Positions 3,978 through 33,801 of a stretch of DNA of 64,000 nt are shown one piece after another. A model generated the notes under the pieces. It was not told the origin of the DNA. It saw nothing but the letters and a program-made list of their open reading frames with translations, and searched no databases. How positions within the stretch are numbered: position 1 is the first letter of the stretch; each line of letters starts with the position of its first letter. Source of the stretch: Rhizobium sp. NFR03 (lineage in GTDB: Bacteria; Pseudomonadota; Alphaproteobacteria; Rhizobiales; Rhizobiaceae); assembly GCF_900111275.1 (NCBI RefSeq), contig NZ_FOGR01000004.1, positions 558,001 through 622,000 on the forward strand, read 5' to 3'. Made by a program: the position numbers and the translations under genes.

Positions 3978-4045
3978 TGGGTCATCCTTGCTAAGTATGT
4001 CTTACTATTAGACACCGGGGGATGAACCTAGGGTGAATAGTCCGT

Positions 4046-7810: not shown

Positions 7811-7830
7811 GGGATGCTCCGGACTTCGTT

Positions 7831-7953
7831 TCAGGCGATCGGCGTTTCGCCATTCAGGTAGCGTTCGAGAAAGGGCAGGCTGTTCTGGCCCCAGTAAAGC
7901 TCGTTCTCGAAGCGATAGGTCGGCAGGCCGAAGATGCCGGCCGCACAAGTCTT
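7831..7953 (-). pseudogene. 3' remnant of DsbA-family isomerase (2-hydroxychromene-2-carboxylate isomerase type)
   Basis: About 40 in-frame residues ending in a TGA at 7831 read GIFGLPTYRFENELYWGQ and then PFLERYL. This is the standard C-terminus of 2-hydroxychromene-2-carboxylate isomerase/GST-kappa proteins (G-V-x-G-V-P-T-x-x-x-x-x-x-x-W-G-Q-D-R). The roughly 160 upstream residues are absent: the match stops about 45 bases after the end of tauC. It is a truncated leftover wedged between tauC and the flavoprotein gene. Confidence 0.75.
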
Positions 7954-19070: not shown

Positions 19071-19178
19071 ACGGATTTGTAAAATGTGGGATCAGCGGTC
19101 CGGCATCGTTGTCGGGACGGGTCGCGCACGGTATCCAAGGCCACGGCGTCGGAGCGATTACAGGCGGGAGATTGCAGC

Positions 19179-20318
19179 ATGCCAGCGGAACGGGACGCGC
19201 TTTCGCAGGCGCCGCTTGCCAGCGATAACGAGCGCATGATCCTCGATATCATCCGCCGTCATGGCACGATGGCGCGATCGACGATCACCAGCCACACGAA
19301 CCTCACGCAGCAGTCGGTTCACCGCCTGGTGGAGGGGCTTGTCGCACGCGGGCTGTTGCGCACGGGGGCGCCTGTCGGGGGAACACGCGGCCAGCCCAGC
19401 CCGACCATCGAGCTTGCGCGCGATGGAGCAAGCGCCATCGGCCTGTCCATCAACACGGACTCGGTCATTCTCTGCATCACCGACCTTTCCTGCGATGTGA
19501 TCGTGGAGGAGCGGCTGGATCTTCAACCGGGCAATCGGGAAGAGACGCTGCGCGCCATCGCCATCAGGCTCGATGCGCTGCTGGCGGAGCATGGGATATG
19601 CAAGGACACGATCGCCGGCTTCGGCTTTTCCATGTCGGGCTTCTTCGTGTCGGAGCATCGCGCCTTCAACGCGCCGGAGTCGCTCTCCGACTGGTCGCTC
19701 AGGAATCTTCGGCCAGAGCTCGAGCACACCTTCCGACTGCCCGTCTGGCTGGAGAACAATGCGACGACGGGCGCGATCGGCGAGAGCATGCGCGGCGTCG
19801 GCCTCTGGTGCCGGACGTTTGCGTTTCTCTCCTTCAACTACGGCTTCGGTGGCGGACTGATTCTCGACGGCAAGCCGTTCCACGGCTTCCACGGCAATGC
19901 AGGCGAGTTCAGCGGCATCTATGTGCCGGGAGAATCCGAACGGCGGCCGGCGCTGCAATATCTTCTGGCATGCCTGCAGGAAAACGGCATCGACATCGAC
20001 AGCATCGATGCCCTGCGACGGGATTTCGACCCTGCATGGCCGGGCGTCGAGGACTGGCTGGCCGAGACCATGCCGCAGGTGGACCGGCTGGTCGCAACGC
20101 TCGTCGCCGTTCTCGACCCGCAGGCCATCGTCTTCGGCGGACAGTTGCCGACGGAACTCGGACGGATGATGATCGAACGGGTACACCTTCCCTCGCAGCG
20201 GGTGCACCGCTATGGCGTCGGGCCGAAGGAGGCGCGGCTCGTGCTCAGCGAGACCCGCGGAGACGCCGCCGCCATCGGTGCGGCGCTCCTGCCTTTGAAG
20301 ATGCGGTATTTTACCTGA
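19179..20318 (+). CDS. ROK family transcriptional regulator
   Basis: A 379-residue protein. Residues 15-65 form a MarR-like winged helix (DNERMILDIIRRHGTMARST then TQQSVHRLVEGLVARGLL). The rest is a ROK/sugar-kinase-like fold with GFGFSMSGFF, NNATTGAIGE and FNYGFGGGLI. The usual zinc-binding Cys cluster (CxCGxxGC) is not seen. A shorter start at 19179 with GGGAG upstream is preferred over the open frame to 19086. It is divergent from the phosphodiester-type ABC operon and most likely represses it through the palindrome at 19038-19070 until a sugar or polyol phosphate binds. It converges with atzF, with only 24 bases between stops. Confidence 0.85.
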   Translation: MPAERDALSQAPLASDNERMILDIIRRHGTMARSTITSHTNLTQQSVHRLVEGLVARGLLRTGAPVGGTRGQPSPTIELARDGASAIGLSINTDSVILCITDLSCDVIVEERLDLQPGNREETLRAIAIRLDALLAEHGICKDTIAGFGFSMSGFFVSEHRAFNAPESLSDWSLRNLRPELEHTFRLPVWLENNATTGAIGESMRGVGLWCRTFAFLSFNYGFGGGLILDGKPFHGFHGNAGEFSGIYVPGESERRPALQYLLACLQENGIDIDSIDALRRDFDPAWPGVEDWLAETMPQVDRLVATLVAVLDPQAIVFGGQLPTELGRMMIERVHLPSQRVHRYGVGPKEARLVLSETRGDAAAIGAALLPLKMRYFT

Positions 20319-20342: not shown

Positions 20343-22157
20343 TCAGGCTTTTGCGCAATAGCCGCGCCATCCGCCATAGGCACTGATATCGGCAGCGCCG
20401 GCCGCGATCGCGACCGGCTCGCAGAGGAAGCCCTTGGCGAATGTGCCGTCGGAAAGGGCAATCGTGCCGATGCCCAAGGGGGTCGGTATCGCGGCGACGA
20501 AGCGGCCGAAGGCTGCAGGCGTCAGCCGCCAGACCTCGACCTCGATCTCCGCGCCCTGTCCTTCGGCAACCCGCACCATGCCCGGCTTCGGCGGCACCGT
20601 GCCGGCGAGCGCATAGAGCCGGTAGGCGTCGGATGTGCGGGCCGTGCGGGAGAATTGCCCGTCGAGATCGACAAGCTGATGGCTCAGCGGCATGCCGGAG
20701 AGATGCGCGCCGACGACGACGAGGTCGATCAGGCTGTCGTCGGACGTATCCGGTTCATGGGCGACGGGTGCAGGTTGCGGCCAGCCGGTTGCGCCGAGCG
20801 TGAGGCCGCTTGCGGTGTGAAGCGCCTGCCCGAGCGTTGCGAGCAGCCCGTCCTTGCCGGCGGGGGCAAGCAGAGTGACGCTTGCCGGAAGGCCATCCTG
20901 CCGCGTCGTCGTGGGCACTGAAAGACCGCACATGTCGAGCAGGTTGACGAAGTTCGTATAGGTCCCGAGCCGCGAATTCTCGCGGATCGGCTCGGCCTCA
21001 AGCTCGGCAACCGTATAGTGGCGCGGGGCGGTCGGCACGCAGAAGAGATCGACCGAGGCGATGACGGGCGCGAGCCTCTTCTTCAGCGACTGAAGGGCAT
21101 AGAGGCCGTTGAAGGCATCGGCTGCCGTTAGTACCTTCGCGCCGCCATAGATCTTGCGCGTCACGGGATGGAACACGTCTTCCCGCGCATCGAAGAAGGC
21201 CTTCACCGCGGCATAGCGCTCGGCCACCCACGCGCCTTCGTAGAGAAGGTCCGCCACGTCGTAGAAAGGGCCGAAGGGGATTTCCACCAGTCTGTGGCCG
21301 AACCCTTTGAGCGTTGTCAGCGCCTGCGCATAGGCTGCTTCCATCTCCGTATCGCCAAAGAATTTCAGATCGGCGCTTGCGGGAACGCCGATGGTCAGCA
21401 CGGGCGGCGCGAGACGGGAACCGGTGGGCAAGACGCGGGAATAGGCGTCCGCAGGGTCCGGCCGGGCCGCGACCGAGAACACCGTCCAGGCATCCTCGAC
21501 CGTCAGCGCGAAGATGGAGACGCAATCGAGCGTCCGGCAGGCGGGGATGACGCCCGTCGTGGAAAGAGCGCCGAGGCTCGGCTTCAGGCCGACGATATTG
21601 TTGAGCCCGGCGGGAATGCGACCCGAGCCCGCCGTATCGGTGCCAAGCGCGAAGGAGACAATGCCCTGCGCCGTTGCGACCGCCGAACCGGACGAGGAGC
21701 CGCCCGGCACGAGTGCGGGGTCGATGGCGTTTTTCGGGATCGGATAGGGCGAGCGGACACCGACGAGGCCGGTGGCGAACTGGTCGAGATTGGTCTTGCC
21801 GATGACGAGGGCACCGGCTTCCCTCAGGAGGCGCACGACCTCCGCGTCTTTTTCCGGCGTATACGCATAATCCGGGCAGGCGGCCGTGGTCGGCATGCCC
21901 GCAACGTCGATATTGTCCTTCACGGCAAAGGGAATGCCGAACAGCTTGCGTGCTGGATTGTAAGGGCCGAGGCGCTGCGCCTCTGCCAGCACATCCTGGC
22001 GGTCCGCAAGATGAAGAAAGATGCCGGGATCATCGACATCCCCGATCCGGGCGAACACGCGCTCCACGATGTCGGAAACGCTGCCGCCATTGCGATAGAA
22101 AACCGAGAGCGATGCAATGTCGAAAGCCGGGAGACCGGACGAGGGAATGCCGGTCAT
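20343..22157 (-). CDS. atzF: allophanate hydrolase
   Basis: A 604-residue amidase-signature enzyme, the size of AtzF (605). It converts allophanate to two ammonia and two CO2. The Ser-cisSer-Lys triad is intact: Lys80 in FAVKDNIDV, Ser154 in PGGSSSGSAVA and nucleophile Ser178 in GTDTAGSGRIPA, with the 98 and 24 residue spacings of the family. The C-terminal region (from about residue 440) is the AtzF-type extra domain. There is no biotin carboxylase partner nearby, so this is the stand-alone route and not urea amidolyase. The ATG overlaps the TGA of the cupin gene. It is the last gene of the cyanurate/biuret operon. Confidence 0.93.
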   Translation of the reverse strand: MTGIPSSGLPAFDIASLSVFYRNGGSVSDIVERVFARIGDVDDPGIFLHLADRQDVLAEAQRLGPYNPARKLFGIPFAVKDNIDVAGMPTTAACPDYAYTPEKDAEVVRLLREAGALVIGKTNLDQFATGLVGVRSPYPIPKNAIDPALVPGGSSSGSAVATAQGIVSFALGTDTAGSGRIPAGLNNIVGLKPSLGALSTTGVIPACRTLDCVSIFALTVEDAWTVFSVAARPDPADAYSRVLPTGSRLAPPVLTIGVPASADLKFFGDTEMEAAYAQALTTLKGFGHRLVEIPFGPFYDVADLLYEGAWVAERYAAVKAFFDAREDVFHPVTRKIYGGAKVLTAADAFNGLYALQSLKKRLAPVIASVDLFCVPTAPRHYTVAELEAEPIRENSRLGTYTNFVNLLDMCGLSVPTTTRQDGLPASVTLLAPAGKDGLLATLGQALHTASGLTLGATGWPQPAPVAHEPDTSDDSLIDLVVVGAHLSGMPLSHQLVDLDGQFSRTARTSDAYRLYALAGTVPPKPGMVRVAEGQGAEIEVEVWRLTPAAFGRFVAAIPTPLGIGTIALSDGTFAKGFLCEPVAIAAGAADISAYGGWRGYCAKA

Positions 22158-22522
22158 GCCAGGTCCTCCGCAAGGATGGTGACGGGCCGGTCCCACTGGA
22201 TCAGCACGACGCATCCCGGTTTGCTCCAGACGGAATGTTCGGTGCCGATCGCGTTCACGATATAGCTGCCTTCGGCGTAGTCGCCCGTCTCGTCCGACTG
22301 CACGCCATCAAGGACGAAGATAGTTTCAAGGCCTTCATGCCGGTGGTGCGGCACGGATGCGCCGGGCTCGTATTTAAGGAGCGCCACGCCCGGCTGGTCG
22401 CCTTCGAAGCGCTTGATCCAGTGGATCGTCACGCCCTGCCGGAAAGCTTCGAATGGCAGGTCCTTCCAGCCTCCCGACGTCGAGAAGTCGCGGGTTGTTT
22501 CATGCCGGGTTGTTTGGGGCAT
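22154..22522 (-). CDS. cupin-domain protein
   Basis: A 122-residue single-domain cupin. Motif 1 reads GASVPHHRHEGLETIFVLDG, which contains the metal-binding H-x-H-x4-E pattern (HHRHEGLE). Motif 2 ends in NAIGTEHSVWS with a third His. It resembles ChrR-like anti-sigma-factor cupins and small metal cupins. It overlaps the hydrolase gene at its start by 23 bases and atzF at its end by 4 bases, so it is made together with them. A catalytic role (for example decarboxylation or assistance with carboxybiuret) or a metal/sensor role are both possible. No function is assigned. Confidence 0.85.
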   Translation of the reverse strand: MPQTTRHETTRDFSTSGGWKDLPFEAFRQGVTIHWIKRFEGDQPGVALLKYEPGASVPHHRHEGLETIFVLDGVQSDETGDYAEGSYIVNAIGTEHSVWSKPGCVVLIQWDRPVTILAEDLA

Positions 22523-23183
22523 CTGGCAGTCCTTTCAGAATATCGTCGATATGCGCCGTCCAGCCGACAATCGCGCCCTGGGCGCGGATCATGGCGATGG
22601 CGGCGGCCTTGAATTCGGGGAAATAGCTCTCGGTCGCCTCCTCGCAGAGCAGGCATTCATAGCCGCGATCATTGGCCTCCCGCATGGTCGTCTGCACGCA
22701 GACCTCCGTGGTAACGCCGGCAAAGACGAGCTGGGTGATGCCCTTTTCCTTGAGGATTTCGCCGAGCCGGGTCGCGTAGAAAGCGCCTTTGCCGGGCTTT
22801 TCGATCACGATTTCACCATCGACCGGTGCGAGTTCGGGCAGGATGGCGGTGCCGGCTTCTCCAACGATCAGAACGCGTCCCATCGGTCCTTCGTCACCGA
22901 TCCGAAGGGCCGGGTTTCCACGGTCGCGCTTGGCAGGCGGGAGGTCGGACAGGTCGGGCCGGTGGCACTCCATGGTATGAATGACGGGAAGGCTCGCAGC
23001 GCGAAAGCCCTCGATCAGCCGCTTCACATCGGGCACGATCCGGCCGATGCGGTAGACGTCGTTGCCGAGGCTCGCGCCGAAGCCGCCGGGCTCGGCGAAA
23101 TCGCGCTGCATGTCGATGACGACGAGCGCCATCTCGTGGGTGCGCGCCGGAAAGGCGAAGGGTTCTGCCGGGATATCCGCCAT
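22500..23183 (-). CDS. isochorismatase-fold cysteine hydrolase, possible triuret hydrolase
   Basis: A 227-residue cysteine hydrolase homologous to biuret hydrolase at 25850-26551. The triad is complete: Asp24 in VVIDMQRDF, Lys129 in EKPGKGAFYAT and Cys162 in [20 protein letters not shown]. It differs from BiuH around the active-site lid: no [11 protein letters not shown] segment, and the [10 protein letters not shown] region reads EATESYFPEF. A second paralogue beside BiuH and AtzF could be triuret hydrolase (TrtA type), which feeds carboxybiuret into the same pathway, or act on ureidomalonate or another ureide. The ATG overlaps the TAA of the ABC ATPase gene (TAATG). Family assignment is firm; substrate is a guess. 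Confidence 0.85.
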   Translation of the reverse strand: MADIPAEPFAFPARTHEMALVVIDMQRDFAEPGGFGASLGNDVYRIGRIVPDVKRLIEGFRAASLPVIHTMECHRPDLSDLPPAKRDRGNPALRIGDEGPMGRVLIVGEAGTAILPELAPVDGEIVIEKPGKGAFYATRLGEILKEKGITQLVFAGVTTEVCVQTTMREANDRGYECLLCEEATESYFPEFKAAAIAMIRAQGAIVGWTAHIDDILKGLPDAPNNPA

Positions 23184-24748
23184 TAGTGATGCCCCGCCAT
23201 ATGCGCCCCGATCACCCCGATATCGGCTCCGCGCGCCGTCGTCTCGTAGACAAGCTTTCCTTCCGAGATGACGATGATGCGATCCGACAGTTCGAGAAGC
23301 TCGTCGAGATCCTCCGACAACAGCAGCACTGCCGTGCCGGCATTGCGCGCCTTCATGATGCGGGCGCGGATTTCGGCGACCGCCGAGAAGTCGAGCCCGA
23401 AACAGGGGTTGGAGACGATGAGCAGATCGACATCGCCCGTGAGTTCCCGGGCGAGCACGGCGCGCTGCACATTGCCGCCCGACAGCGCGGCGATGGGGGA
23501 GGAGGAAGACGCGGTCTTCACCTTGAAGTCGGAAATGAGCGCGGTCGCGCGCGCCTTCATGGCCGCCTTCGAAAGCCAGATCGCTCTCCCGCCGTCCGGC
23601 TTCAGGTCGAAGGTGCGGAAGGACAGGTTTTCGCTGACCGTCATGCGCGGTGCGCAGGCGTTCTGCAGCGGTTCTTCCGGGATGAAGCGGACATTGTTCC
23701 TGCGGGTTTCCGCACGCGTCGCGCCATAGGCTGCGCCGTTGACCTCAATGGTGCCGGCAGAGGTGGCGCGCTGGCCGGCCAGGATCTCGGTCACCTCCTT
23801 CTGCCCGTTGCCGGAGATACCGGCGATGCCGACGATCTCGCCTGCGCGCACGCAGAGGTCGTCGATCTCGATGGTCTTCAGCCCGGAGCGATCCGGCGCT
23901 TTCACACGGGAGAGTTTCAGCACCGTATCGGCCGTTTCCTTCACGGGTGCGCGGCTGTCGAGTTCGGCGAGCTTCACATCGCCGATCATCAAGGCGGCCA
24001 TGTCGGCGGTGGAGAGATCGCCGATCCTGCCGGCGCCGACGAGCTTGCCGCGTCTGAGGATGGAAACGGCGTCGGCGAACTTGGTGATTTCGTGGAACTT
24101 GTGGGAAATCATGAGCACGGTCAGCCCGCCGCTTTCCGTGAGACTGCGCACAAGACCCAGCATCTCGTCGGCCTCTGCCGGCGTCAGCACCGAGGTCGGC
24201 TCGTCGAGGATCAGGAAGGAGCGGCCGAGATAGAGCTGCTTGACGATTTCGAGCTTCTGTTTCTCACCGGCTGCCAGTTCGCGCACCGGCCGGTCGAGCG
24301 GGATGTGGAACGGCATGCGCTCCATGAAGCGTGCAAGGTCCTTGCGTTCCTTAGGCCAGTTGATCACGGCGGGCACTTCGGCACGGCTGATGACGAGGTT
24401 TTCGGCTCCGGTCAGCGAGGGAACCAGGGTGAAGTGCTGGTAGACCATGCCGAGCCCTGATGACGCGGCATCGCGCGGCGAGGCGACCGACACCTCACGG
24501 TCATCGACCAGAAGCGAGCCCGATGTCGCGTGATAGAAACCCATGATGCACTTGACGAGGGTCGATTTGCCGGCGCCGTTTTCGCCGAGCAGCGCATGGA
24601 ACGAGCCGGCGGGCACGCGGATCGACACGTCGTCCAGCGCCGTGAAGCTGCCGAAGCGCATCGTCATGCCGATGGTCTCGATGCCGGCTGCCGCCTTGCC
24701 GGTAACCGCGCCCGTTTCCAGACCTCTGCTATCGCGAACGATCTGCAT
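23183..24748 (-). CDS. ABC transporter ATP-binding protein, two ABC domains (BMP/nucleoside type)
   Basis: A 521-residue fused ATPase of the RbsA/NupA/YufO class. Domain 1 has Walker A GENGAGKST (55-63), a degenerate signature ELAAGEKQKLEI and ILDEPTSVLTP. Domain 2 has the degenerate P-loop GISGNGQKE and the canonical signature LSGGNVQRAVLARE, with a Walker B region (LLIVSNPCFGLD) where the usual Glu-Pro is replaced by Asn-Pro-Cys. Mixed catalytic and non-catalytic sites are usual in this class. It powers import by the two permeases at 27630-29686. The gene is separated from them by four enzyme genes. The start at 24748 lies one base after the atzD stop. Confidence 0.9.
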   Translation of the reverse strand: MQIVRDSRGLETGAVTGKAAAGIETIGMTMRFGSFTALDDVSIRVPAGSFHALLGENGAGKSTLVKCIMGFYHATSGSLLVDDREVSVASPRDAASSGLGMVYQHFTLVPSLTGAENLVISRAEVPAVINWPKERKDLARFMERMPFHIPLDRPVRELAAGEKQKLEIVKQLYLGRSFLILDEPTSVLTPAEADEMLGLVRSLTESGGLTVLMISHKFHEITKFADAVSILRRGKLVGAGRIGDLSTADMAALMIGDVKLAELDSRAPVKETADTVLKLSRVKAPDRSGLKTIEIDDLCVRAGEIVGIAGISGNGQKEVTEILAGQRATSAGTIEVNGAAYGATRAETRRNNVRFIPEEPLQNACAPRMTVSENLSFRTFDLKPDGGRAIWLSKAAMKARATALISDFKVKTASSSSPIAALSGGNVQRAVLARELTGDVDLLIVSNPCFGLDFSAVAEIRARIMKARNAGTAVLLLSEDLDELLELSDRIIVISEGKLVYETTARGADIGVIGAHMAGHH

Positions 24749-24749
24749 G

Positions 24750-25850
24750 TCAGCTCTCCTGTTCCAAAACGGTTTCGCGCTCCACGATAATGGCGACCGG
24801 TCCGCCGCCCGGTGGACCCTGATGCTCCGCGCCGCCCGAAACATAGAGGTCGGTCATACCGAAGACGCCGGCGAGAACGCCGCCGACGAAGGCGCGGGCA
24901 TGGCGGGTGCCGGCGATGTCGGAATCGTCCAGCATGGTGTGACGCTGGCCCCCGACCATGCCGGACGGGTCCGGTTCGGCCTTGGCGAGGACGGCCGCGA
25001 GCCGCGCCGTATCCGGCAGCCGGGCCCGCGCCGCGCGCACGGACGCCGTGTCGATGGCGTTCGCCATGACGGCGTGGTCGATCGCCAGCGGCCCGCGCCA
25101 CGCCTTGCTCATGCCGAGCACGATGATTTCGTGATCCGTGAGCTCGACGCCGGCCGAGGTGGAGGCGCAGCGGGAAAAGAGATCGAGCCGTGAGCCGATG
25201 ACATCGTCGGTCATGTCGCTCGCGTCGATCTCGCCAAGCGCCACCGCCACGCCGAGGGCAGAGGCGCCGCGGGAGAGCCCCATGGATTTCAGCGTGTCGC
25301 GCGTGGCCACCGTCTCACCCGACATTTCGGCTTCTGCGATGCGGGCAAGCGTCAGCAGCGGGCACTTGATCTGGACGAAATGCACATCCTTGGGATCGTC
25401 GACCCCGGCGTCTGCCATGGCGGCCCGAACGCCTTCAGCGACCATAAGTACCTGTTCGCGACGACCGAGATGATGGAAGGGGAGGTGCGGCGTGCGCGTC
25501 GCGCCGATGGCGAGCGCGGCCTCGCCTGACGTGTCGGCGGTCTCTTTCGCATCTTCCCGCGCGAAAACCGTCCAGTGCGGCGATAGCGCGCCTTCCGTGC
25601 CACCGGACATGACGAGGCAGGGTGCCTTGACGTGATGCCGTGCAAACAGCGCCTCGAAACTCGCGGTGGCATATCCGCGGGTGAAATCGTTGACGCAGCC
25701 ATTGCCCTCGGTCTTGCCCAGAATGGCAACGACCGCCTCAGGCTTCAGCCCTGCGGCAAAGAGCGCTTCCACGCCCGATACATCGGCGGGGCCGCTCGCC
25801 GGCACCCGCCAGACGGAGGCTCGGGGCATGTCACGGTGTGCGGGGGGCAT
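24750..25850 (-). CDS. atzD: cyanuric acid amidohydrolase (AtzD/barbiturase family)
   Basis: A 366-residue ring-opening amidohydrolase with the threefold repeat of the family. Three Ser-Lys pairs are visible: Lys46 (LGKTEGNG) with Ser82 (MSGGTEG), Lys162 (QIKCPLLT) with Ser232 (ASTSAGVEL), and Lys290 (LAKAEPDPSG) with Ser338 (YVSGGAEHQGPPGGG). It opens cyanuric acid to carboxybiuret, which loses CO2 to give biuret. Barbiturase is the main alternative, but adjacent biuH and atzF make cyanuric acid the better call. The start at 25850 overlaps the TGA of biuH (TGATG). An alternative start at 25829 lacks a ribosome-binding site. Confidence 0.9.
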   Translation of the reverse strand: MPPAHRDMPRASVWRVPASGPADVSGVEALFAAGLKPEAVVAILGKTEGNGCVNDFTRGYATASFEALFARHHVKAPCLVMSGGTEGALSPHWTVFAREDAKETADTSGEAALAIGATRTPHLPFHHLGRREQVLMVAEGVRAAMADAGVDDPKDVHFVQIKCPLLTLARIAEAEMSGETVATRDTLKSMGLSRGASALGVAVALGEIDASDMTDDVIGSRLDLFSRCASTSAGVELTDHEIIVLGMSKAWRGPLAIDHAVMANAIDTASVRAARARLPDTARLAAVLAKAEPDPSGMVGGQRHTMLDDSDIAGTRHARAFVGGVLAGVFGMTDLYVSGGAEHQGPPGGGPVAIIVERETVLEQES

Positions 25851-26551
25851 CAGGGCAGGGCCTCGATCAACGCTTGCGACTTCGAGACCGCGCCGAAGAC
25901 GCCGCCCTGCATCTTGACCATCTTGATGGCCGCGAGGTGGTTGCCGTAGTCGGTCGCGCCGCAGCAATCCTCCAGCATGACGCACTCGAAGCCGCGATCG
26001 TTCGCCTCGCGCATGGTGGTGGAGACGCAGACATCGGTGGTGATGCCGGTGAGGATGAGGTTTTCGATGCGCTTCTGGTTGAGGATCAGCTCCAGATCGG
26101 TCGCGCAGAACGAGCCCTTGCCCGGCTTGTCGATGATGGTCTCGCCGGCGATCGGATAGAGTTCGGGAATGATGTCCCAGCCGGGCTCGCCGCGCGTGAG
26201 GATGCGCCCGCAGGGGCCGGCGTCGCCGATACCCGCGCCGATGCGCTGCGACCGCCAGCGCTTGTTGGCCGGCAGGTCGGCAAGATCCGGGCGGTGCCCC
26301 TCGCGGGTGTGGATGATGTGGTAGCCCTTGGCGCGCATCGCTGCGAGTACCGCGCCGATGGGCTTGATCGGCGCCTGAACCAGCGCGAGATCATAACCCA
26401 TATGATCGACATAGCCGCCTTTGCCGCAGAAATCCGTCTGCATGTCGATGATGACGAGCGCCGTATTGTCGGGCCGCAGCTTGCCGTTATAGGGCCAGGG
26501 ATAAGGATCGGCGGTGATGTAGTGTCCGGCGGTTTCGGTCATCGCATCCAT
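25850..26551 (-). CDS. biuH: biuret hydrolase
   Basis: A 233-residue isochorismatase-superfamily cysteine hydrolase. The residues known from rhizobial BiuH fall at the same numbers: Asp36 (VIIDMQTDF), Lys142 (IDKPGKGSF) and Cys175 (TTDVCVST). The lid segments [11 protein letters not shown] and [12 protein letters not shown] are also as I remember from the Rhizobium enzyme. It hydrolyses biuret to allophanate and ammonia. AGGAGAGA precedes the ATG at 26551. It follows amiF by 11 bases and overlaps atzD by one base. AtzE, AtzG and AtzH, which bypass biuret in Pseudomonas ADP, are absent from the window, so the biuret route is the one encoded. Confidence 0.95.
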
Positions 26552-26562
26552 GATCGTCTCTC

Positions 26563-27579
26563 CTATTCCGCAGCTTGGCTGGCGCTCTCGCCATATTTCC
26601 GGGTGGGTTTTTCAAAGCCGCAGGGCGTGCCGTCGGTCACCTTGACCGCGTCTTCCCAGGGCAGCCGGTAGGTGCCGGCGATGAGGTCGTGCATGTAGCT
26701 GTAGGGCGCATCGCCCGCCCCGCCGGCGACCGCGACATAGCCGCGATGGCCGAGCTGGTAGATGTTGTTCTCCACGCCCCAGCCGAGCCGCGCCTCGCGC
26801 ACCAGATCCGGCCGGACCTCCGCCGTGATGATCTCGTTGACGCGTCCCGACGTGCCGTGCGCGATGATCGTGCCGTCGAAATTGCAGATCATGCCTTCGC
26901 CCATGCTGTCGAACGTGCCGTCCGAGCCGCACATGCAGACGCTCGCCGTCACCATGAGATTGCAGAAGGCGTTCGACTGGTTGGTGAAGCGCCAGGATTC
27001 GCGGATCGGCGCGGTGTAGCCGGCCGTGCGGATCATGATCTCGGCGCCCTTGTAGGCGCATTCGCGCGCCATCTCCGGGAACATGCCGTCGTGGCAGATG
27101 ATGAGCGAGAGCTTGGCACCCTTCGGCCCGTCGATGACGGGTATGCCGAGATCCCCCGGCTCCCATGGCTCGACAGGCACCCAGGGGTGCATCTTGCGGT
27201 AATAGAGCTTCAGGTCACCCTGATCGTCGATCACGATGCCGGAATTGTAGGGCATGCCGCCGGGATTGTGTTCCATGATCGAGAAGCAGCCCCAGATCGC
27301 GTTCTCCTTGCAGGCCGCCTTGAAGGCTGCGACTTCGGGTCCGTCGAGGTCGCACATGATCTCGAGATTGATGTCCATGGAGAGGCCATGCAGGGCATAT
27401 TCCGGGAAGACGACGAGGTCCATGCCGGGCTGGTTGCGGCGCGCTTTGGCAACGAGGTCGACAATCACCTGCGTCTGGCGCGCAAGATCGGCTTTCGTCA
27501 CGGTCAGCGGCAGTTGCAGCTGTACGAGACCGATGCCGACGCCGTGTTCGGATATGTTGAGACCACCCAGACCGTTCAT
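26563..27579 (-). CDS. amiF: formamidase
   Basis: A 338-residue nitrilase-superfamily amidase. Glu60 ([10 protein letters not shown]), Lys129 ([10 protein letters not shown]) and Cys162 ([11 protein letters not shown]) form the catalytic set. The N-terminus [17 protein letters not shown] and the block [19 protein letters not shown] are characteristic of AmiF, which splits formamide to formate and ammonia, and not of the longer-chain aliphatic amidase AmiE. The ATG at 27579 has GGAGC upstream. It lies between the permease and biuH genes, within the cyanurate operon. Since no formamide is made in the cyanuric acid pathway, it either handles another nitrogen source taken up together or has a shifted substrate. 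Confidence 0.93.
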
Positions 27580-27629
27580 GTGGAAGCTCCTTCGTATGTC
27601 GTTTTGCGCATGCGCATTTTTGCAGTTCG

Positions 27630-28556
27630 TTATTTCGTCAGGGAAAGCTCGCCCGGTGCACCGGAGAGCGCGCGGTGGGGGGAGGATGTGGCGATGAGGA
27701 TGGCAAGCGTCAGCACGTAGGGCGCCGCATAGAAGAGGTAGTAGCCCTGCGTGACGCCCACCGACTGGAGCGCCGGCCCGAGTGCGCCGGTGCCGCCGAA
27801 GAGGAGGGCGGCGAGGAAGCAGTTGATCGGGTTCCAGCGGGCGAAAATGACGAGCGCGACCGCCATGAGGCCCTGACCCGACGAGATGCCCTCGTTCCAC
27901 GAGCCGGGATAGTAGAGCGAGAGATAGGCCCCGCCGACCGCCGCGAGCGCGCCGCCGAGCGCGGTGGCGAGAAGCCGGACGCGGTCCGGGTTGATGCCCA
28001 TCGCGCGGGCCGCATCGGTGGAATCGCCGACGACGCGCAGGATGAGGCCGGGGCGCGTGTTGCGGAACGCCCAATAGAGAAAGAGTGCAAGAAGAAAGCC
28101 GACGAAGAACAGCACGTTGATGTTCAGCGCCGCCTGCACCTGCGGGTAGGATGACCAGTTGCCGAGCGGAATGGAGGGCAGCTTCGGCGCTGATGGCTGG
28201 ATGAAGGGCTTGCCAAGGAAGAAGGCAAAGCCCAGCCCGAACTGCATCATGGCAATGCCGATCGCGATGTCGTTGACCCGGGGAAAACGGCAGATGAAGC
28301 CGTGGATGAGCCCGAAGACCGCGCCTGCTCCCATGGCCGCGAGCACGCCGAGCCAGGGCGAGCCCGTGAGCACCGCCACGGCATAGGCCGTCATCGCGCC
28401 GAAGACGAGCGTGCCTTCGAGCCCGAGATTGATGCGTCCGGAGCGCTCCGTGATGGCCTCGCCGAGCGAGACGAAGATGAAGGGCGTGGAGACGCGGATG
28501 GCGCCGGCGATGATGGCAAGGGGCACGCCCCAAAGGCCGATATCCGTCTCGCTCAT
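27630..28556 (-). CDS. ABC transporter permease (BMP/nucleoside type, YufQ-like)
   Basis: A 308-residue inner-membrane permease of the BPD_transp_2 family with about eight hydrophobic segments. Family features are ERSGRINLGLEGTLVFGAM near the N-terminus and the internal AARAMGINPDRVRLLATALGG loop, cited here in parts. Its ATG at 28556 overlaps the TGA of the partner permease gene (ATGA). It transports the ligand delivered by the BMP-type binding protein at 29729, probably cyanuric acid, biuret or a related ureide. Confidence 0.88.
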   Translation of the reverse strand: MSETDIGLWGVPLAIIAGAIRVSTPFIFVSLGEAITERSGRINLGLEGTLVFGAMTAYAVAVLTGSPWLGVLAAMGAGAVFGLIHGFICRFPRVNDIAIGIAMMQFGLGFAFFLGKPFIQPSAPKLPSIPLGNWSSYPQVQAALNINVLFFVGFLLALFLYWAFRNTRPGLILRVVGDSTDAARAMGINPDRVRLLATALGGALAAVGGAYLSLYYPGSWNEGISSGQGLMAVALVIFARWNPINCFLAALLFGGTGALGPALQSVGVTQGYYLFYAAPYVLTLAILIATSSPHRALSGAPGELSLTK

Positions 28557-29686
28557 GCGCGGGTTCCTTTCCACACATCGGGATTGAAGACCTTGAAGCG
28601 GCCGTAGAAGGTTTCGCAGAAGAGGATGACGATGAAGAGCGTGCCTTGCAGGGCGACGACCGTGGCATCGGGCAGTCCCATCCGCCGCTGGATCAGCCCG
28701 CCGGATGCCTCCAGCCCGCCGAGCAGGATAGCGATGGGGATGATGGCCAGCGGATTGTGGCGTGCGAGGAAGGCGACGAGGATGCCGGTGTAGCCATAGC
28801 CGGCGGCAAGCGAGGCATTGGCGCTACCCTGCACGGCGGCGACCTCCAGCATTCCGGCGAGCCCCGCGAAGCTGCCGGCGATGGCCGTGAACCCGACGAT
28901 GAGCCGACCGACCGGCAGGCCCTGAATCTGCGCCGCGCGGACATTTCCCCCCGCCATGCGGGCGGCAAAGCCGAAGCGTGTCGCCTCGATGAGGACGTAG
29001 GAGAGGATGCAGGCGATGATGGCGATGACAAGGCCCCAATGGACGTCCATGCCGGGGATGGCGCCGATCATGTATTCGGGCGGCAGAGGCAGGGTGGAGG
29101 GCTTGTTGAGGCTGGCGGGATCGCGCAGCGGTCCTTCGACGAGCTGGTTCATCAGCGCGATGGCGATATAGGAGAGCAGCAGCGACGAGATCGTCTCGTT
29201 GACGCCGCGATAGTGACGCAGGAAGCCGACCGCGCCGATCCAGACGCCCCCGACGACCATGGACGCGAGCGCCATCGCGACGAGCGTCGGATAGGGCGGC
29301 AGAAGGCCGGTGAGCGGCGTGGCAATGGCCGCCGCAGCAACGCCACCGAGCACCAGCGCGCCCTCGCCGCCGATAATGACGAGGCCGAGACGTGCCGGCA
29401 GCGCCACGCAAAGGGCGGTGAGGAGAAGGGGAGCGGCCCGCGACAGGCTGTTCTGGATAGAGAACCAGCTGCCGAAGCCGCCGGTATACATGATCTGGAA
29501 GAGCGCAAGCGGCGACTTGCCGATCGCGAGAATGAAGATCGAGAAGAGCGCCAGACCGGTGACGATCGCTGCAAGGCCGATGACGACGGGCTCCGCCCGC
29601 CGCGCCAGCCATTCGAGCGCCGGGCGGAAGGACGCGGCACCCCCGGAGCCTGCCAACAGCGCAGGATTGTTCGCTTCGACGGTCAT
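28553..29686 (-). CDS. ABC transporter permease (BMP/nucleoside type, YufP-like)
   Basis: A 377-residue permease of the BPD_transp_2 family with an N-terminal tail of about 35 residues before the first helix (VVIGLAAIVTGLALFSIFIL). Typical features are ALPARLGLVIIGGEGALVLGG and the loop ARMAGGNVRAAQIQGLPVGR, given in parts. It forms the channel with the 27630-28556 product. It follows the binding-protein gene by 42 bases. Confidence 0.88.
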   Translation of the reverse strand: MTVEANNPALLAGSGGAASFRPALEWLARRAEPVVIGLAAIVTGLALFSIFILAIGKSPLALFQIMYTGGFGSWFSIQNSLSRAAPLLLTALCVALPARLGLVIIGGEGALVLGGVAAAAIATPLTGLLPPYPTLVAMALASMVVGGVWIGAVGFLRHYRGVNETISSLLLSYIAIALMNQLVEGPLRDPASLNKPSTLPLPPEYMIGAIPGMDVHWGLVIAIIACILSYVLIEATRFGFAARMAGGNVRAAQIQGLPVGRLIVGFTAIAGSFAGLAGMLEVAAVQGSANASLAAGYGYTGILVAFLARHNPLAIIPIAILLGGLEASGGLIQRRMGLPDATVVALQGTLFIVILFCETFYGRFKVFNPDVWKGTRA

Positions 29687-29728
29687 GACGCGTTTCCCTT
29701 TGCTTGGGTTGGCCAGTGGCAGGGGATA

Positions 29729-30862
29729 TCAGGAGGTGGAGCCGACCACGCCCTCGACGAGATAGGCCATGCTTTCCAGATCGATCGCGTCCTCGGCATA
29801 GGCCTTGTCGGCGGCGATCACCGCATTGCCCTTGTTGTCCTTCAGGGGGCCCTTGAATACGGAAAGCTTGCCCGTCATCGCTTCGGCATGGGCTGCCTCG
29901 AAAGCCTTGCGGCCTGCCTCCGGAACACCGGGGCCGAGCGGGCTCATCTTGACGAAGCCATCCTTCAGACCGCCGCGCACGAAGTTTCCAAGCTTCTCGC
30001 CGGCCTGGGCCTTCTGGATGAAGTCGGTGTAGACATTGCCCCAGGCCCATTCGGCGCCCGTCAGATACTTCTCGGGCGCCAGAGGGCTCTGGTTGGCATG
30101 ATAGCCGCAGACGAAAGCGCCCCGACCAGCCGCCGTCTCGACCACGACCTTGGGGCTGTCGACATGGCAGGTGATGACGTCGACGCCTTGGTCCACCAGC
30201 GCATTGGTGGCTTCCGCTTCCTTGATGGCAAGCGACCATTCGCCGGTGAAGATGACCTGGCAGGTGATCGCGGGATCCACCGAGCGGGCGCCCAGCAGGA
30301 ACGCGTTGACGTTTTGCAGCACCTGCGGGATCGGCTTGGCGGCCACGAAGCCGATCTTCTTCGACTTGGAGGCATGCCCGGCGGCGATGCCGTTCAGGTA
30401 CTGGCCCTGATGGATATAGCCGAAATAGGATCCGGTGTTGGCGGGATGCTTGCCCTCCTGCCAAAGGCCACCGCAGTGGCGGAACTGGGTATCGGGATAT
30501 TTGGCCGCCATCGCCAGCATGTGGGGATCGAAGTATCCGAAGGAGGTCGGGAAGATCAGCGCGGCGCCATCGAGGTTGATCATCGACTCCATCGTCTTCT
30601 GGACATCGACTGTCTCGGGTACGTTTTCTTCCTCGACCAGCGTAATGCCCGGCATGGCCTTGATGACGGCCGCACCTTCGGCATGCGCCTGGTTGTAGCC
30701 GTAGTCATCCTTGGGGCCGACATAGATGAAGCCGACGGTCAGCGCTTCCTGCGCGAAGGCGGCTGACCCCATCAGGCCCGGCACGGCGCTTGCCGCAAGG
30801 CCGGCGGCGGAGGCCTGGAGAAAATGGCGGCGGTTCATGGAAAAGCGGTTGGTCATCATCAT
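29729..30862 (-). CDS. BMP-family ABC substrate-binding protein, Tat-exported
   Basis: A 377-residue periplasmic binding protein of the basic membrane protein (PnrA/Med) family. The signal has a twin-arginine motif NRRHFLQAS, followed by a hydrophobic stretch ending GSAAFA. The mature part begins QEALTVGFIYVGPKDDYGYN, the classic BMP opening, and contains FGYFDPHMLAMAAKYPD. Three ATG codons lie in a row at 30862, 30859 and 30856 after GGGGAAC. Spacing favours 30856, but 30862 is given. No lipobox Cys is seen. It is the first gene of the cyanurate/biuret operon. BMP proteins usually bind nucleosides or purines, and a cyanurate-like ring or ureide is a plausible mimic. Confidence 0.88.
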   Translation of the reverse strand: MMMTNRFSMNRRHFLQASAAGLAASAVPGLMGSAAFAQEALTVGFIYVGPKDDYGYNQAHAEGAAVIKAMPGITLVEEENVPETVDVQKTMESMINLDGAALIFPTSFGYFDPHMLAMAAKYPDTQFRHCGGLWQEGKHPANTGSYFGYIHQGQYLNGIAAGHASKSKKIGFVAAKPIPQVLQNVNAFLLGARSVDPAITCQVIFTGEWSLAIKEAEATNALVDQGVDVITCHVDSPKVVVETAAGRGAFVCGYHANQSPLAPEKYLTGAEWAWGNVYTDFIQKAQAGEKLGNFVRGGLKDGFVKMSPLGPGVPEAGRKAFEAAHAEAMTGKLSVFKGPLKDNKGNAVIAADKAYAEDAIDLESMAYLVEGVVGSTS

Positions 30863-30905: not shown

Positions 30906-31158
30906 TGTATGCAATGACCGTGCCACCCGGTAACCATCTGTAAACATTAGACCCCGTTATGGGATCGCAACAGGACTGCGGAAAGTGCATGCAGTTTTAA
31001 AATGATTTGCCTATTTTTACGGCTCTGCGAGCCTTTCAGGCTGTTCCATGTGCGCGTTACCGGGGTCAGTTCATGAAAACCGACGCAACTGTCATGTTTT
31101 CAATGTCTTAAACAGACGATTGACATGGCCGCGCCGGACCGTCATCTGTATGCAGTGA
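30906..31158. promoter_or_regulatory. divergent promoter region with repeated TGYATGCA motif
   Basis: The 318-bp region between the BMP gene and the GntR gene holds TGTATGCAATGA at 30906-30917, TGCATGCA (perfect palindrome) at 30986-30993 and TGTATGCAGTGA at 31147-31158. The outer copies lie 44 bases from the BMP start and 23 bases from the GntR start. FCD-type GntR regulators bind such short TGTATGCA-like sites, so these are likely operators for the 31181 product. Promoter boxes were not resolved with confidence, although TTGACA occurs at about 31120. Confidence 0.6.
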
Positions 31159-31180: not shown

Positions 31181-32047
31181 GTGACGCAGGCAAAACGGAA
31201 GACCGTCACACGCACCGGAACGACCGTCGAGCAGATGGTGCGCGCGATCGCCGATATGATCGTGACCGGCATGATGGTGCCCGGGGAGCGGCTGGACGAG
31301 CTGTCTCTGGCGACACGCTTCGATGTCTCGCGAACGCCGGTGCGGGAAGCCCTGCGGGAACTCGGCGCCATGGGGCTGGTCGGCCGCGAGCCGAACCGCA
31401 GCGCGATCGTGACGACTGTGGAGGAGGCCCATCTTCATGCGATGTTCGAGGCGATGGCGGAACTCGAAGGGATCTGCGCCCGGCTTTCCGCAGCGCGCAT
31501 GACGGCAGACGAGCGGCATGCCCTCGAACACGAGCACCGCACCTCGATGCAGCTCGTGCGTTCGGGCGTGCCCGAGGACTATGCCGCCTATAATACCGAG
31601 TTTCACAACCGGCTCTACCGCGGCGCTCATAACGACCACCTTTTCGAACTGGCGACGCAGACCCGCGCAAGGCTTGCACCGTTTCGCCGCGCGCAGTTCC
31701 GTCTTTCGGGCCGGTTGTCGAAATCCTACGAGGAACATGACCGCATCGTCACCGCCATCCTGCGGGCCGACACGACCGCTGCCGGAAAGGCAGCCTTTGA
31801 TCATGTCTCGATCGTCAGCGATGCCAGTATCGTATTCGCCGCGACACGCGGCGAACACCGAGAGAGATGCTTCGAGCGATTACGCCAGGCCGTCGATCAC
31901 CAGCCCGGAGAGGCTCGCCTTGGCGCGGCTCTTCAACTCGGCGACGCGGGCGGTGACGGCATTGACGTCGGTGAGGATCGTGCCCTTTTCCAGCATCAGG
32001 ACGCCGACGCTGCACCGCATCAGAGGATAGGCCTGCTCGACACCTGA
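31181..32047 (+). CDS. GntR family transcriptional regulator (FCD subfamily)
   Basis: A 288-residue regulator starting at GTG 31181. An in-frame ATG is not available nearby. Residues 12-75 form a winged helix (VPGERLDELSLATRFDVSRT and PVREALRELGAMGLV). Residues 85-215 form the FCD all-helical ligand domain with metal-type His positions (FHNRLYRGAHN, HDRIVTAI). Known FCD proteins end soon after a segment like VSIVSDASIVFAATRG, but here the frame runs on for about 56 residues over the 3' end of the convergent gene. It probably controls the cyanurate/biuret operon and itself. The extended tail looks like a lost stop codon and may be non-functional. Confidence 0.87.
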   Translation: MTQAKRKTVTRTGTTVEQMVRAIADMIVTGMMVPGERLDELSLATRFDVSRTPVREALRELGAMGLVGREPNRSAIVTTVEEAHLHAMFEAMAELEGICARLSAARMTADERHALEHEHRTSMQLVRSGVPEDYAAYNTEFHNRLYRGAHNDHLFELATQTRARLAPFRRAQFRLSGRLSKSYEEHDRIVTAILRADTTAAGKAAFDHVSIVSDASIVFAATRGEHRERCFERLRQAVDHQPGEARLGAALQLGDAGGDGIDVGEDRALFQHQDADAAPHQRIGLLDT

Positions 32048-33673
32048 GCGGCCGTACCCCATGATGAAGCCACGCTTGCGATCGTCGTCCGAGTAGAGCT
32101 CCTCCACCCCGCTTTTGAAGGCGCCGAGCAGCCGCGTCAGCATGTCGTCCACCTTGCTCTCCGGCAGGTCCGACAGGCCGACGAAGAAGTCGTCGCCTCC
32201 GACATGGCCGATGAAATCGCCGTCGCCGATGAAGTGGCGGCGCAGAAGCGCCGAAAACAGCGTGATGGCGGCGTCGCCACGATGAAAGCCGTACTGGTCG
32301 TTGAACGGTTTGAAATTATCGAAGTCGCAATAGCAGAAGAAGCGGGTGTGGTCGCCGTCGAGCATGGATTCGTGAACATGGTCGCGGATGGCGCGGTTGC
32401 CGGGCAGGCCGCTCAAGGGGTTCTGGTCGCGCGCGAATTTCAGTTGCTTCTCGCTGATGATGCGCAGCAGAGAGGCAGAAGACAGGATGCCGGCATAGCG
32501 CATGTTCTCGGTCAGGATCAGGCAATCGCTGCCGTTCGCGCCGGTGAAGATGTCGAGCATCTCATGGGCCGGCATATTCACATCGGCAACCGGTGCCGGC
32601 GTGACGAAGCTGGAGATGCGGCGCTGGTAGACCCGGTTTTGCAGGAGATCGCGCCCGAACGGGTGGTAGATCATCTCCTTCAGGTGATATTCGTGAATGA
32701 CGCCCCGGGGTTCGTCATTGGCGTTCAGCACCGGAAAGAAGGCCTGCTGGGGCGAGGTCCGGAAAAGCTCGAAGATCGTTTCGAGCTTTGCGCTTTCCTG
32801 CACGGTCGGGAGATGCTCGACCTGCCGGCGGATCAGCACGCTGTCGGCCGAGGCGGTCCGCCGCTTGGTATCGTCGGCCTGCGCGAGGTGCGGATAGCTG
32901 ACCTTCAGATCCGCATGGCAGACGGTCGGCATGGCCACGAAATAGCCCTGCAGCAAATCGCAGCCGAGATCGCGGCAGACGTGAAACTCCGCCTCGGTCT
33001 CCACGCCTTCGGCGATGACGCGCGCGCCGAGCTTGTGCGCCATCGTCACGATGTGCCGGACCAGTTGCCGGTTTCGCGGAAGGCTTTCGATGTGGGACAC
33101 GAAGTGACGGTCGATCTTGACGTAATCGACGTCCGCATTGGACAGGAGCTTCAGGCCGCTGAAGCCGACGCCGAAATCGTCGATCGCCAGCTTGAAGCCG
33201 TGCTGCCGCAACCGGTCGAGAAGCGTGTCGAACGCGGCGATCGTCTCGTTGTCGTGTCGCTCGGACAGTTCGAAGCAGATGCTGGAAGGCGGGATGCCGA
33301 CGCGCTTGAGATGGGCATCGAGCCGGTGGAGGATCGCCTCGTCATCCGCGCCGACCAGCCGCGTATCGAAATTGACGAAGAGGGTGCGCTGCTCGAAGCC
33401 CGGCAGCGCGGCGAACGCCGCAAGCGCCCGGCTGATGACCATGTGCTCCAGGGCCAGAAGCTCGCCATTCTCATGCGCCCGGTCGAGAAGCGCCAGCGGC
33501 GAGCCGAAGCCAAGCCGGTCGAAGCCGCGCATCAGGGACTCGTAACCGAAGCAAGTCCCGGTCGTCGCCTCGACGATCGGCTGCAAGGCGGTCTCGACGA
33601 CGAGCTTGGACAGGGTCACGATCTGGTCGCGGCCGAGATGACGGGGCGAAAACGTTTCGAGAAGGGCACTCAC
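31880..33673 (-). CDS. cyclic-di-GMP protein with EAL-CBS-GGDEF order
   Basis: About 597 residues from GTG 33673, which has GGAGACC upstream; a TTG at 33694 is the alternative. The N-terminal EAL domain keeps the phosphodiesterase residues: Glu45 (YESLMR), Asn100 (FVNFD), Glu134 (ELSER), Asp164-Asp165 (DDFGVGFSG), Lys185, Glu221 (EGVET) and Gln241. A CBS-like pair spans about 275-410. The C-terminal GGDEF domain has GGDDF (491-495) in place of GG[DE]EF. No membrane segments are seen, so it is cytosolic. EAL first and GGDEF last reverses the usual order. It overlaps the convergent GntR frame by 168 bases at the 3' end. Confidence 0.9.
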   Translation of the reverse strand: MSALLETFSPRHLGRDQIVTLSKLVVETALQPIVEATTGTCFGYESLMRGFDRLGFGSPLALLDRAHENGELLALEHMVISRALAAFAALPGFEQRTLFVNFDTRLVGADDEAILHRLDAHLKRVGIPPSSICFELSERHDNETIAAFDTLLDRLRQHGFKLAIDDFGVGFSGLKLLSNADVDYVKIDRHFVSHIESLPRNRQLVRHIVTMAHKLGARVIAEGVETEAEFHVCRDLGCDLLQGYFVAMPTVCHADLKVSYPHLAQADDTKRRTASADSVLIRRQVEHLPTVQESAKLETIFELFRTSPQQAFFPVLNANDEPRGVIHEYHLKEMIYHPFGRDLLQNRVYQRRISSFVTPAPVADVNMPAHEMLDIFTGANGSDCLILTENMRYAGILSSASLLRIISEKQLKFARDQNPLSGLPGNRAIRDHVHESMLDGDHTRFFCYCDFDNFKPFNDQYGFHRGDAAITLFSALLRRHFIGDGDFIGHVGGDDFFVGLSDLPESKVDDMLTRLLGAFKSGVEELYSDDDRKRGFIMGYGRSGVEQAYPLMRCSVGVLMLEKGTILTDVNAVTARVAELKSRAKASLSGLVIDGLA

Positions 33674-33801
33674 CGGCGGTCTCCAGGACGACAACTGTGC
33701 CGACCATCGCAGGGGAGTTTAAACGTTTGGTTTGCGCAGAATGACAGTTTTATGAAGAAGCATGGCACGTTACATGATCTCGGGACGGGGCCACGCAGAT
33801 G

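Follow-up and report, generated by a model that had tools for sequence, protein, structure and literature searches.

Known systems for cyanuric acid, biuret and triuret

The enzymes that degrade cyanuric acid, biuret and triuret are known, as are operons that hold them, and a BMP-type ATP-binding cassette (ABC) importer has already been seen beside triazine genes or beside biuH and trtA. In this sense, the operon considered here, a minus-strand run of ten genes occupying 30862-20343 of a 64,000-nucleotide stretch of Rhizobium sp. NFR03 (contig NZ_FOGR01000004.1, positions 558,001 to 622,000; the whole stretch is called the window below), is not new. It is probably a nitrogen-scavenging operon for oxidised, urea-like compounds, in which a BMP-type importer for biuret, and probably triuret, would be joined to the enzymes that lead to ammonia. 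Biuret and triuret have sources in urea fertiliser and in uric acid oxidation.

Among the described systems, the atzDGEHF and atzRSTUVW genes of Pseudomonas sp. ADP include AtzD, AtzF and a neighbouring BMP-type ABC importer, as in the window (PMC6834077). This strain uses AtzEG and AtzH, whereas the window genome has no match to AtzH-like proteins (PF11533) and no AtzE over the cut-off, its best AtzE-family match reaching 362 bits versus 461. Furthermore, no isochorismatase is annotated in the ADP stretch examined, whereas the window has two. The BMP protein AtzT has been solved with guanine and with 2-hydroxyatrazine, and PMC6834077 gives dissociation constants (KD) of 360 nM for ammeline and 2.2 uM for 2-hydroxyatrazine. 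The ADP BMP protein, taken to be AtzT, is 37% identical to that of the window (P0010), which has Gln180 where AtzT has Glu165.

An operon on the pRL10 plasmid of R. johnstonii (leguminosarum bv. viciae) 3841 (NC_008381.1, RL_RS29140-RL_RS29185) matches that of the window in gene content and order from gntR and bmp to the cupin gene, atzD and the formamidase gene included. No atzF adjoins the operon in the pRL10 stretch examined, whereas atzF is the tenth gene in the window. Strain 3841 is the source of the solved BiuH 6AZO (PMC5806882) and is stated, together with Herbaspirillum sp. BH-1, to have operons with TrtA, BiuH and AtzF (PMC7948467); the triuret operon of BH-1 resembles the window in this respect. 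The 3841 pathway set out in PMC6219798 consists of AtzD, a solvent-driven conversion of carboxybiuret and BiuH, the operon being presented there as not yet demonstrated. All ten genes are also found on a Rhizobium tumorigenes plasmid. The comparison of gene order with other rhizobia, suggested in an earlier note on this DNA, finds the operon in common with pRL10 (except for atzF), with this plasmid and, for its core genes, with 78 of 80 named loci (see below). In nitrifiers, a BMP importer, bmpA-nupABC, is collocated with trtA, biuH and atzF, like in the window; it is labelled as a nucleoside transporter and the word cupin is absent from the main text of that paper (PMC12625717).

A like operon is also found between IS1 elements on an Enterobacter plasmid (L314:7188-16811, NZ_CP008898.1), without atzD or cupin. 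According to its annotation, it holds atzF, bmp, two permease genes, a formamidase gene, two isochorismatase genes, an ATPase gene and gntR. BMP genes with the same identity (59%) are found on plasmids of Citrobacter and Klebsiella.

Gene content of the operon

The gene order is bmp, permease 1, permease 2, amiF, biuH, atzD, ABC ATPase gene, trtA, cupin gene and atzF, with a divergent gntR gene beside bmp. Families were assigned by Pfam and NCBIfam profiles. The features are the following:

29729..30862, minus strand: bmp, BMP/PnrA-type substrate-binding protein (P0010, 377 aa) with a twin-arginine signal (Pfam Bmp and TAT_signal; 6pi5 match; pocket mapping)
28553..29686, minus strand: permease 1 (P0009; BPD_transp_2)
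27630..28574, minus strand: permease 2 (P0008; BPD_transp_2), GTG start
26563..27579, minus strand: amiF, formamidase (P0007; NCBIfam formamidase; Glu60, Lys129, Cys162)
25850..26551, minus strand: biuH, biuret hydrolase (P0006; NCBIfam, identity to the solved BiuH, residues)
24750..25850, minus strand: atzD, cyanuric acid hydrolase (P0005; NCBIfam, residues), between biuH and the ATPase gene
23183..24748, minus strand: ABC ATPase with two nucleotide-binding domains (P0004; Pfam)
22500..23183, minus strand: trtA, triuret hydrolase-like isochorismatase (P0003; 6xix match, residues)
22154..22522, minus strand: ChrR-like metal cupin (P0002; Pfam Cupin_7, metal ligands, model), candidate carboxybiuret decarboxylase
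20343..22157, minus strand: atzF, allophanate hydrolase with amidase and C-terminal domains (P0001; Pfam, NCBIfam, residues)
31181..32047, plus strand: divergent GntR/FCD-family regulator (P0011; Pfam GntR and FCD), likely operon regulator

Calculated from the coordinates, the nine junctions from bmp to atzF measure +42, -22, +50, +11, -1, +1, -1, -23 and -4 bp, the start of atzF (22157) lying within a longer open reading frame (ORF). The earlier note had described ten minus-strand genes with overlaps or short gaps, one operon that joins an ABC importer to every enzyme needed between cyanuric acid and ammonia, and intact active sites in AtzD, BiuH, AmiF and AtzF. The junctions (-23 to +50 bp), the families with their cut-offs and the residues listed below bear this out. 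However, the note had overlooked the triuret hydrolase-like gene at 22500-23183, and its cyanuric acid framing is secondary.

All five hydrolases have intact active-site residues. AtzF (P0001) reaches 809 bits with TIGR02713 (cut-off 511), has the AH_C domain and carries Lys80, Ser154 and Ser178, which we take from family knowledge to be its Ser-Ser-Lys catalytic triad. AmiF (P0007) reaches 574 bits with the NCBIfam formamidase model (cut-off 406) and carries Glu60, Lys129 and Cys162, presumably its catalytic triad, again from family knowledge. The residues of the other enzymes were mapped against PMC5806882 (BiuH), PMC7948467 (TrtA) and PMC4051656 (AtzD pairs). P0006 scores 424 bits with the BiuH equivalog NF050097 (cut-off 370), has the triad Asp36, Lys142 and Cys175 and the substrate contacts Lys145 and Gln215 all in place and is identical to the solved BiuH of strain 3841 at 211 of 233 residues (91%), an identity to an assayed enzyme that makes it a predicted biuret hydrolase. 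AtzD (P0005) scores 532 bits with the equivalog NF052395 (cut-off 360) and has three Ser-Lys dyads, Lys46-Ser82, Lys162-Ser232 and Lys290-Ser338, as in PMC4051656, Ser232 being taken from the printed alignment. The best solved match of P0003 is TrtA (6xix, E 3.2e-80), with 126 of 213 aligned residues identical (59%) and the four TrtA key residues Asp24, Lys129, Cys162 and Gln202 present (numbering from PMC7948467); its sequence thus designates it as TrtA-like, a predicted triuret hydrolase. A second BiuH was also considered for P0003 and rejected, since it scores 235 bits against the BiuH cut-off of 370 and has TrtA as best solved match.

In the proposed pathway, the importer would take up biuret and probably triuret; uptake of cyanuric acid by the same importer is possible but less supported. 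Triuret would be converted by TrtA to carboxybiuret and ammonia, and cyanuric acid by AtzD to carboxybiuret. The latter would lose CO2 to yield biuret, perhaps with the aid of the cupin, before BiuH would release allophanate and ammonia from biuret, and AtzF ammonia and CO2 from allophanate. The reactions of BiuH, TrtA, AtzD and AtzF are established in the literature on relatives and are carried over to the window by analogy. The divergent GntR protein would control the operon.

Genes linked to the importer across genomes

In named genomes, the loci compared are the best 80 of 570 BMP relatives, among at least 592 matching stretches; being mostly from Rhizobiaceae, they are close copies. Since 78 of these closest 80 have bmp, both permease genes, biuH, the ATPase gene, trtA and the cupin gene, chance is no serious alternative. 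The two exceptions are L066, a short contig, and L076 (Zavarzinia), with bmp, the permease genes, biuH and the ATPase gene only. The atzD gene is found in 32 of the 80 loci and was not found in 48, one of them a short contig.

Three further samples were led by BiuH, AtzD and BMP, respectively. In sample (a), drawn from 398 genomes of the phylum and 199 of the order and excluding the window genome, BiuH is strongly matched (E < 1e-100) at 55 loci, and 51 of these have bmp, two permease genes and the ATPase gene around biuH. In sample (b), 22 of 385 genomes of the class have an AtzD match, at 29 places. The 19 loci read (L225-L243) cover 20 of the 28 places that lie in other genomes; the remainder consists of L090, of only 3.5 kb, and of seven places with short flanks only. 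None of these 19 AtzD loci, read outside operons of the present type, contains bmp, and in 18 of them importer genes, trtA and biuH are all absent at an identity threshold of 45%. Sample (c) comprises the 22 loci with a BMP identity of at least 57%, besides that of the window, in 289 genomes of the class: biuH is present in 20, some of which, such as L274 and L275, show neither trtA nor atzD within the stretch read, and the other two loci (L280 and L295) are cut short by the end of a contig. By comparison, 17 loci chosen for a BMP of lower identity all lack biuH; five of them belong to the window genome, and one of these five, L300, showed no BMP match.

Samples (a) and (c) pooled give 73 BMP loci, 51 of which entered the sample by way of BiuH. 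These hold biuH in 71 cases, trtA in 57 and atzD in 7, beside biuH in five of the seven. The pairing of BMP and BiuH is seen in 33 family codes of the sampled genomes. The importer follows BiuH, not AtzD.

The earlier note had proposed an importer dedicated to a triazine ring or to biuret. The dedication to triazine is not supported, atzD not having been found in 66 of the 73 pooled loci or in 48 of the 80 named ones, nor bmp in any of the 19 separate AtzD loci read; biuret fits better. The note also held that a triazine-binding BMP protein would represent a ligand class not known before, a claim weakened by AtzT, a BMP protein already solved with 2-hydroxyatrazine (PMC6834077).

The binding protein and its likely ligand

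The importer has all its parts: a Bmp domain (132 bits for P0010, cut-off 24.1), two permeases and a double ATPase. The closest solved structure to P0010 is AtzT (6pi5, E 3.1e-62). In AtzT, guanine lies between Tyr45 and Trp194 and is contacted by Ser97, the Phe98 backbone, Glu165, Asn218 and Asn220 (PMC6834077). By alignment, these positions correspond in P0010 to Tyr56 and Trp209 (the aromatic pair), Ser107, Phe108, Gln180, His233 and Asp235, to which Gln154 and Asn184 are added in the nine-residue pocket. Hence, P0010 shares the aromatic pair and the Ser/Phe contacts with the purine subgroup but has Gln180 instead of its Glu. His233 and Asp235 are common to P0010 and to the adenine-bound Brucella protein 3s99, so that the groups cannot be told apart by them.

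In a 90% non-redundant set, the Glu165 position is occupied in the 79 operon BMPs by Gln (60), Thr (11), Ser (7) or Ile (1), never by Glu. It is Glu in 17 of the 20 other BMPs (Gln in two, Leu in one) and in both references, AtzT and 3s99. In a quick tree with a long-branch warning, a branch (Shimodaira-Hasegawa-like approximate likelihood ratio test, SH-aLRT, 99) divides the 79 operon BMPs from AtzT and 3s99. The same branch is recovered after leaving out the three longest rows (L296, L298 and L299; SH-aLRT 100), AtzT and L312 remaining long. We infer from the lack of Glu at position 165, from this grouping and from a pocket that is the same in close relatives with or without atzD that the BiuH-linked BMPs bind a ligand other than a purine, common to all forms of the operon. 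Biuret and triuret appear likelier than a triazine ring. Biuret is favoured because BiuH is the most constant enzyme, the two BMP loci without it being cut by contig ends, and triuret is also a likely ligand. Searches of the open-licence PubMed Central (PMC) literature showed no paper that gives a BMP protein biuret or triuret as ligand.

The next reading in order of probability, although an improbable one, is that the importer serves cyanuric acid, biuret and triuret only feeding in downstream. It would explain why the operon includes atzD in the window and in part of the named loci. Moreover, the pocket keeps an aromatic sandwich suited to a ring, and its homologue AtzT binds ammeline and 2-hydroxyatrazine (see above). 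However, this reading fits poorly with the rarity of atzD in the pooled BMP loci, with the lack of bmp around the separate AtzD genes, and with the nine pocket positions, which are identical among close relatives with and without atzD. Still less probable is an ordinary purine or nucleoside importer sitting in the operon by chance and supplying purine breakdown products: 3s99 and AtzT do hold purines (PMC6834077), genes of this kind are labelled as nucleoside transporter genes in nitrifiers (PMC12625717) and six BiuH operons have a purine-type importer close by, but the guanine-contacting Glu is absent from all 79 operon BMPs, which group apart from AtzT and 3s99, and Pfam and NCBIfam find no purine gene among the ten operon genes.

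Several observations weigh against a biuret and triuret importer. Four of the 55 BiuH loci have no importer (L193, L194, L201 and L202). In genome G093, the distance between the stand-alone atzD of L227 and the trtA/ATPase end of a distinct BMP-BiuH operon is 8.2 kb, and distant ABC genes (31-37%) are found near two other stand-alone AtzD loci (L225 and L231). A TrtA-like gene (57%) is present in the comparison BMP locus L311, and an isochorismatase gene of 32-33% in two others, L301 and L302; the BMPs of these last two have Gln at the Glu165 position, a change that is thus not unique to BiuH-linked BMPs. In L178-L181, L183 and L185, a second BMP importer (33-34% identity) lies a few kb beyond the BiuH operon. 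All six second BMPs carry the purine-type Glu and a purine context is therefore not remote, which slightly lowers confidence in the ureide reading and raises that in the purine one. The aromatic pair and the AtzT-like Ser/Phe contacts persist in the P0010 pocket, which could therefore accept a planar ring, for instance a purine or cyanuric acid. The NCBIfam model of a B6-transporter BMP is weak on P0010 (61 bits, cut-off 400) and names no ligand. The pathway role of amiF, which accompanies 40 of the 79 non-redundant operon BMPs and is present in 45 of the 80 named loci, is unexplained, and we know of no formamide arising in the triuret, biuret or cyanuric acid routes. Finally, the co-occurrence of BMP and BiuH could result from shared ancestry or co-transfer.

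The L301 and L302 genes encode distant BMP importers (39-40%) with a different pocket, beside the isochorismatase of 32-33% identity mentioned above. They are possibly another ureide importer.

The cupin and the carboxybiuret step

The gene that follows trtA encodes a protein of 122 residues (P0002) in which Pfam shows one domain (Cupin_7) and no separate sigma-binding domain. The metal cupin motif is G(X)5HXH(X)3E(X)6G. Its residues Gly54, His60, His62, Glu66 and Gly73 and the later His96 are each present in 92 of 92 sequences; the ligands His60, His62, Glu66 and His96 are thus invariant in this set, which has many close copies, and also in 35 of 35 sequences of a more varied one. The predicted structure is a cupin barrel (predicted local distance difference test score, pLDDT, 88.5). 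Both by sequence and by fold, P0002 comes closest to ChrR proteins (3o14), but the fold search gives a broad cupin list (ChrR, dioxygenases, KdgF, a predicted oxalate decarboxylase) that does not settle the function.

With identity cut-offs of 45% for the cupin, 40% for AtzH-like and 45% for AtzE-like proteins (amidase matches of about 29% being left uncounted), the 57 trtA loci hold the cupin only (22), AtzH/AtzE only (29), neither (6) or both (0). Counted by 45 genera, the same classes give 16, 23, 6 and 0 (Fisher p 1.2e-7). Among the 35 trtA loci without the cupin, 29 have an AtzH-like gene (PF11533, NCBIfam HpxZ) and/or an AtzE-family amidase gene in the stretch read. The seven importer-bearing loci outside the window's class (L175 and L187-L192) have no cupin, and an AtzH-like gene in six cases. 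On a Pseudomonas luteola plasmid, hpxZ directly follows an isochorismatase gene that is in the trtA position (identified by that position). No cupin was found in the 16 BMP loci without trtA, two of which are cut by contig ends. Since trtA loci hold the cupin or relatives of AtzH/AtzE but never both, the cupin may be a carboxybiuret decarboxylase. Searches of the open-licence PMC literature showed no paper in which a cupin is placed in this pathway.

It is nevertheless quite conceivable, at somewhat under an even chance, that the cupin is a sensor or regulator like the cupin domain of ChrR rather than a pathway enzyme and that carboxybiuret decarboxylates unaided. The ChrR matches, the solvent-driven conversion published for 3841 (PMC6219798), the carboxybiuret half-life of about 20 min in vitro (PMC7948467) and the six trtA loci that do without either kind of protein all agree with this. 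By contrast, the lack of a sigma-binding domain, the mutual exclusion with AtzH/AtzE and the invariance of the metal ligands argue for an enzyme. These six loci also weigh against a decarboxylase, as do two of 29 families that hold both kinds of protein, in different loci. In addition, the exclusion is not significant after correction for the tree (four independent pairs, starred branches, median p 0.5), a test of low power. The combined proposal, in which the BiuH-linked BMPs form a clade of importers for linear ureides (biuret, triuret) without the purine Glu and the Rhizobium-type cupin is a carboxybiuret decarboxylase replacing AtzH/AtzEG, is tentative and rather doubtful as a whole.

Cyanuric acid hydrolase as an optional cassette

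Of the 41 AtzDs in fetched loci with biuH, 39 are encoded within 300 bp of biuH, which is the definition of in-operon used here; those of L175 and L187 are not. In the AtzD tree, 28 non-redundant in-operon AtzDs form, with one stand-alone copy, one set (SH-aLRT 100). On the BMP tree, the atzD carriers are scattered, with 16 changes for 17 carriers. Many separate gains, as this scatter would suggest, were rejected in view of the single AtzD set, and the simplest reading is that atzD entered the operon once, followed by losses or transfer. The window operon is a biuret/triuret operon with an added, optional cyanuric acid cassette.

The regulator and neighbouring genes

A divergent gntR gene is found beside bmp in 79 of the 80 named loci. 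Three operator-like sites lie in the 318 bp between the two genes in the window:

30906..30914, minus strand: operator-like site TTGCATACA, upstream of bmp (exact TGCATACA conserved in gntR-bmp intergenic stretches)
30986..30993, no strand assigned: operator-like site TGCATGCA, mid intergenic (TGCATGCA in 47 of 87 intergenic stretches)
31147..31154, minus strand: operator-like site TGCATACA, next to the gntR start (motif scan)

Exact TGCATACA is present in 80 of 87 non-redundant gntR-bmp intergenic stretches, often in two or three copies, and ATTGCATACACTT occurs once in the whole genome, upstream of bmp at the 30906-30914 site. With one mismatch, the window as a whole shows no enrichment of TTGCATACA (6 versus 4.6 expected), so the case for these sites is one of conservation and place, not of count. 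The operon is probably under the control of the GntR protein acting at these repeated TTGCATACA-like sites. A promoter scan gave no sigma-70-like site (0 versus 1.9 in shuffles), and a terminator scan 11 versus 6.5.

At 867 bp, the gntR ORF (31181-32047) is longer than its 675 bp counterpart in strain 3841. A convergent EAL/GGDEF gene (31880-33694) shares 168 bp with the 3' end of gntR. On the other side of the operon, a ROK-family gene on the plus strand (19086-20318) ends just past atzF and is convergent with the operon. Further away, at 4008-7948, a molybdopterin oxidoreductase gene adjoins an FAD-linked oxidase gene on the same strand, outside the operon.

Significance

The operon itself is ordinary; the ureide ligand of the BMP group and the cupin are the parts worth testing. 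In the model rhizobium, one step of the pathway has no enzyme, and the cupin is a candidate for it. If this role is true, the step held to be spontaneous in 3841 would be enzyme-driven, and by a fold unrelated to AtzH; if TrtB, the carboxybiuret decarboxylase of Herbaspirillum, proves to be this cupin, the role is already known. As for the importer, a system labelled as a nucleoside transporter gains a likely different ligand, biuret or triuret. Given the many family codes in which BMP and BiuH are paired, a result from one strain would inform annotation widely.

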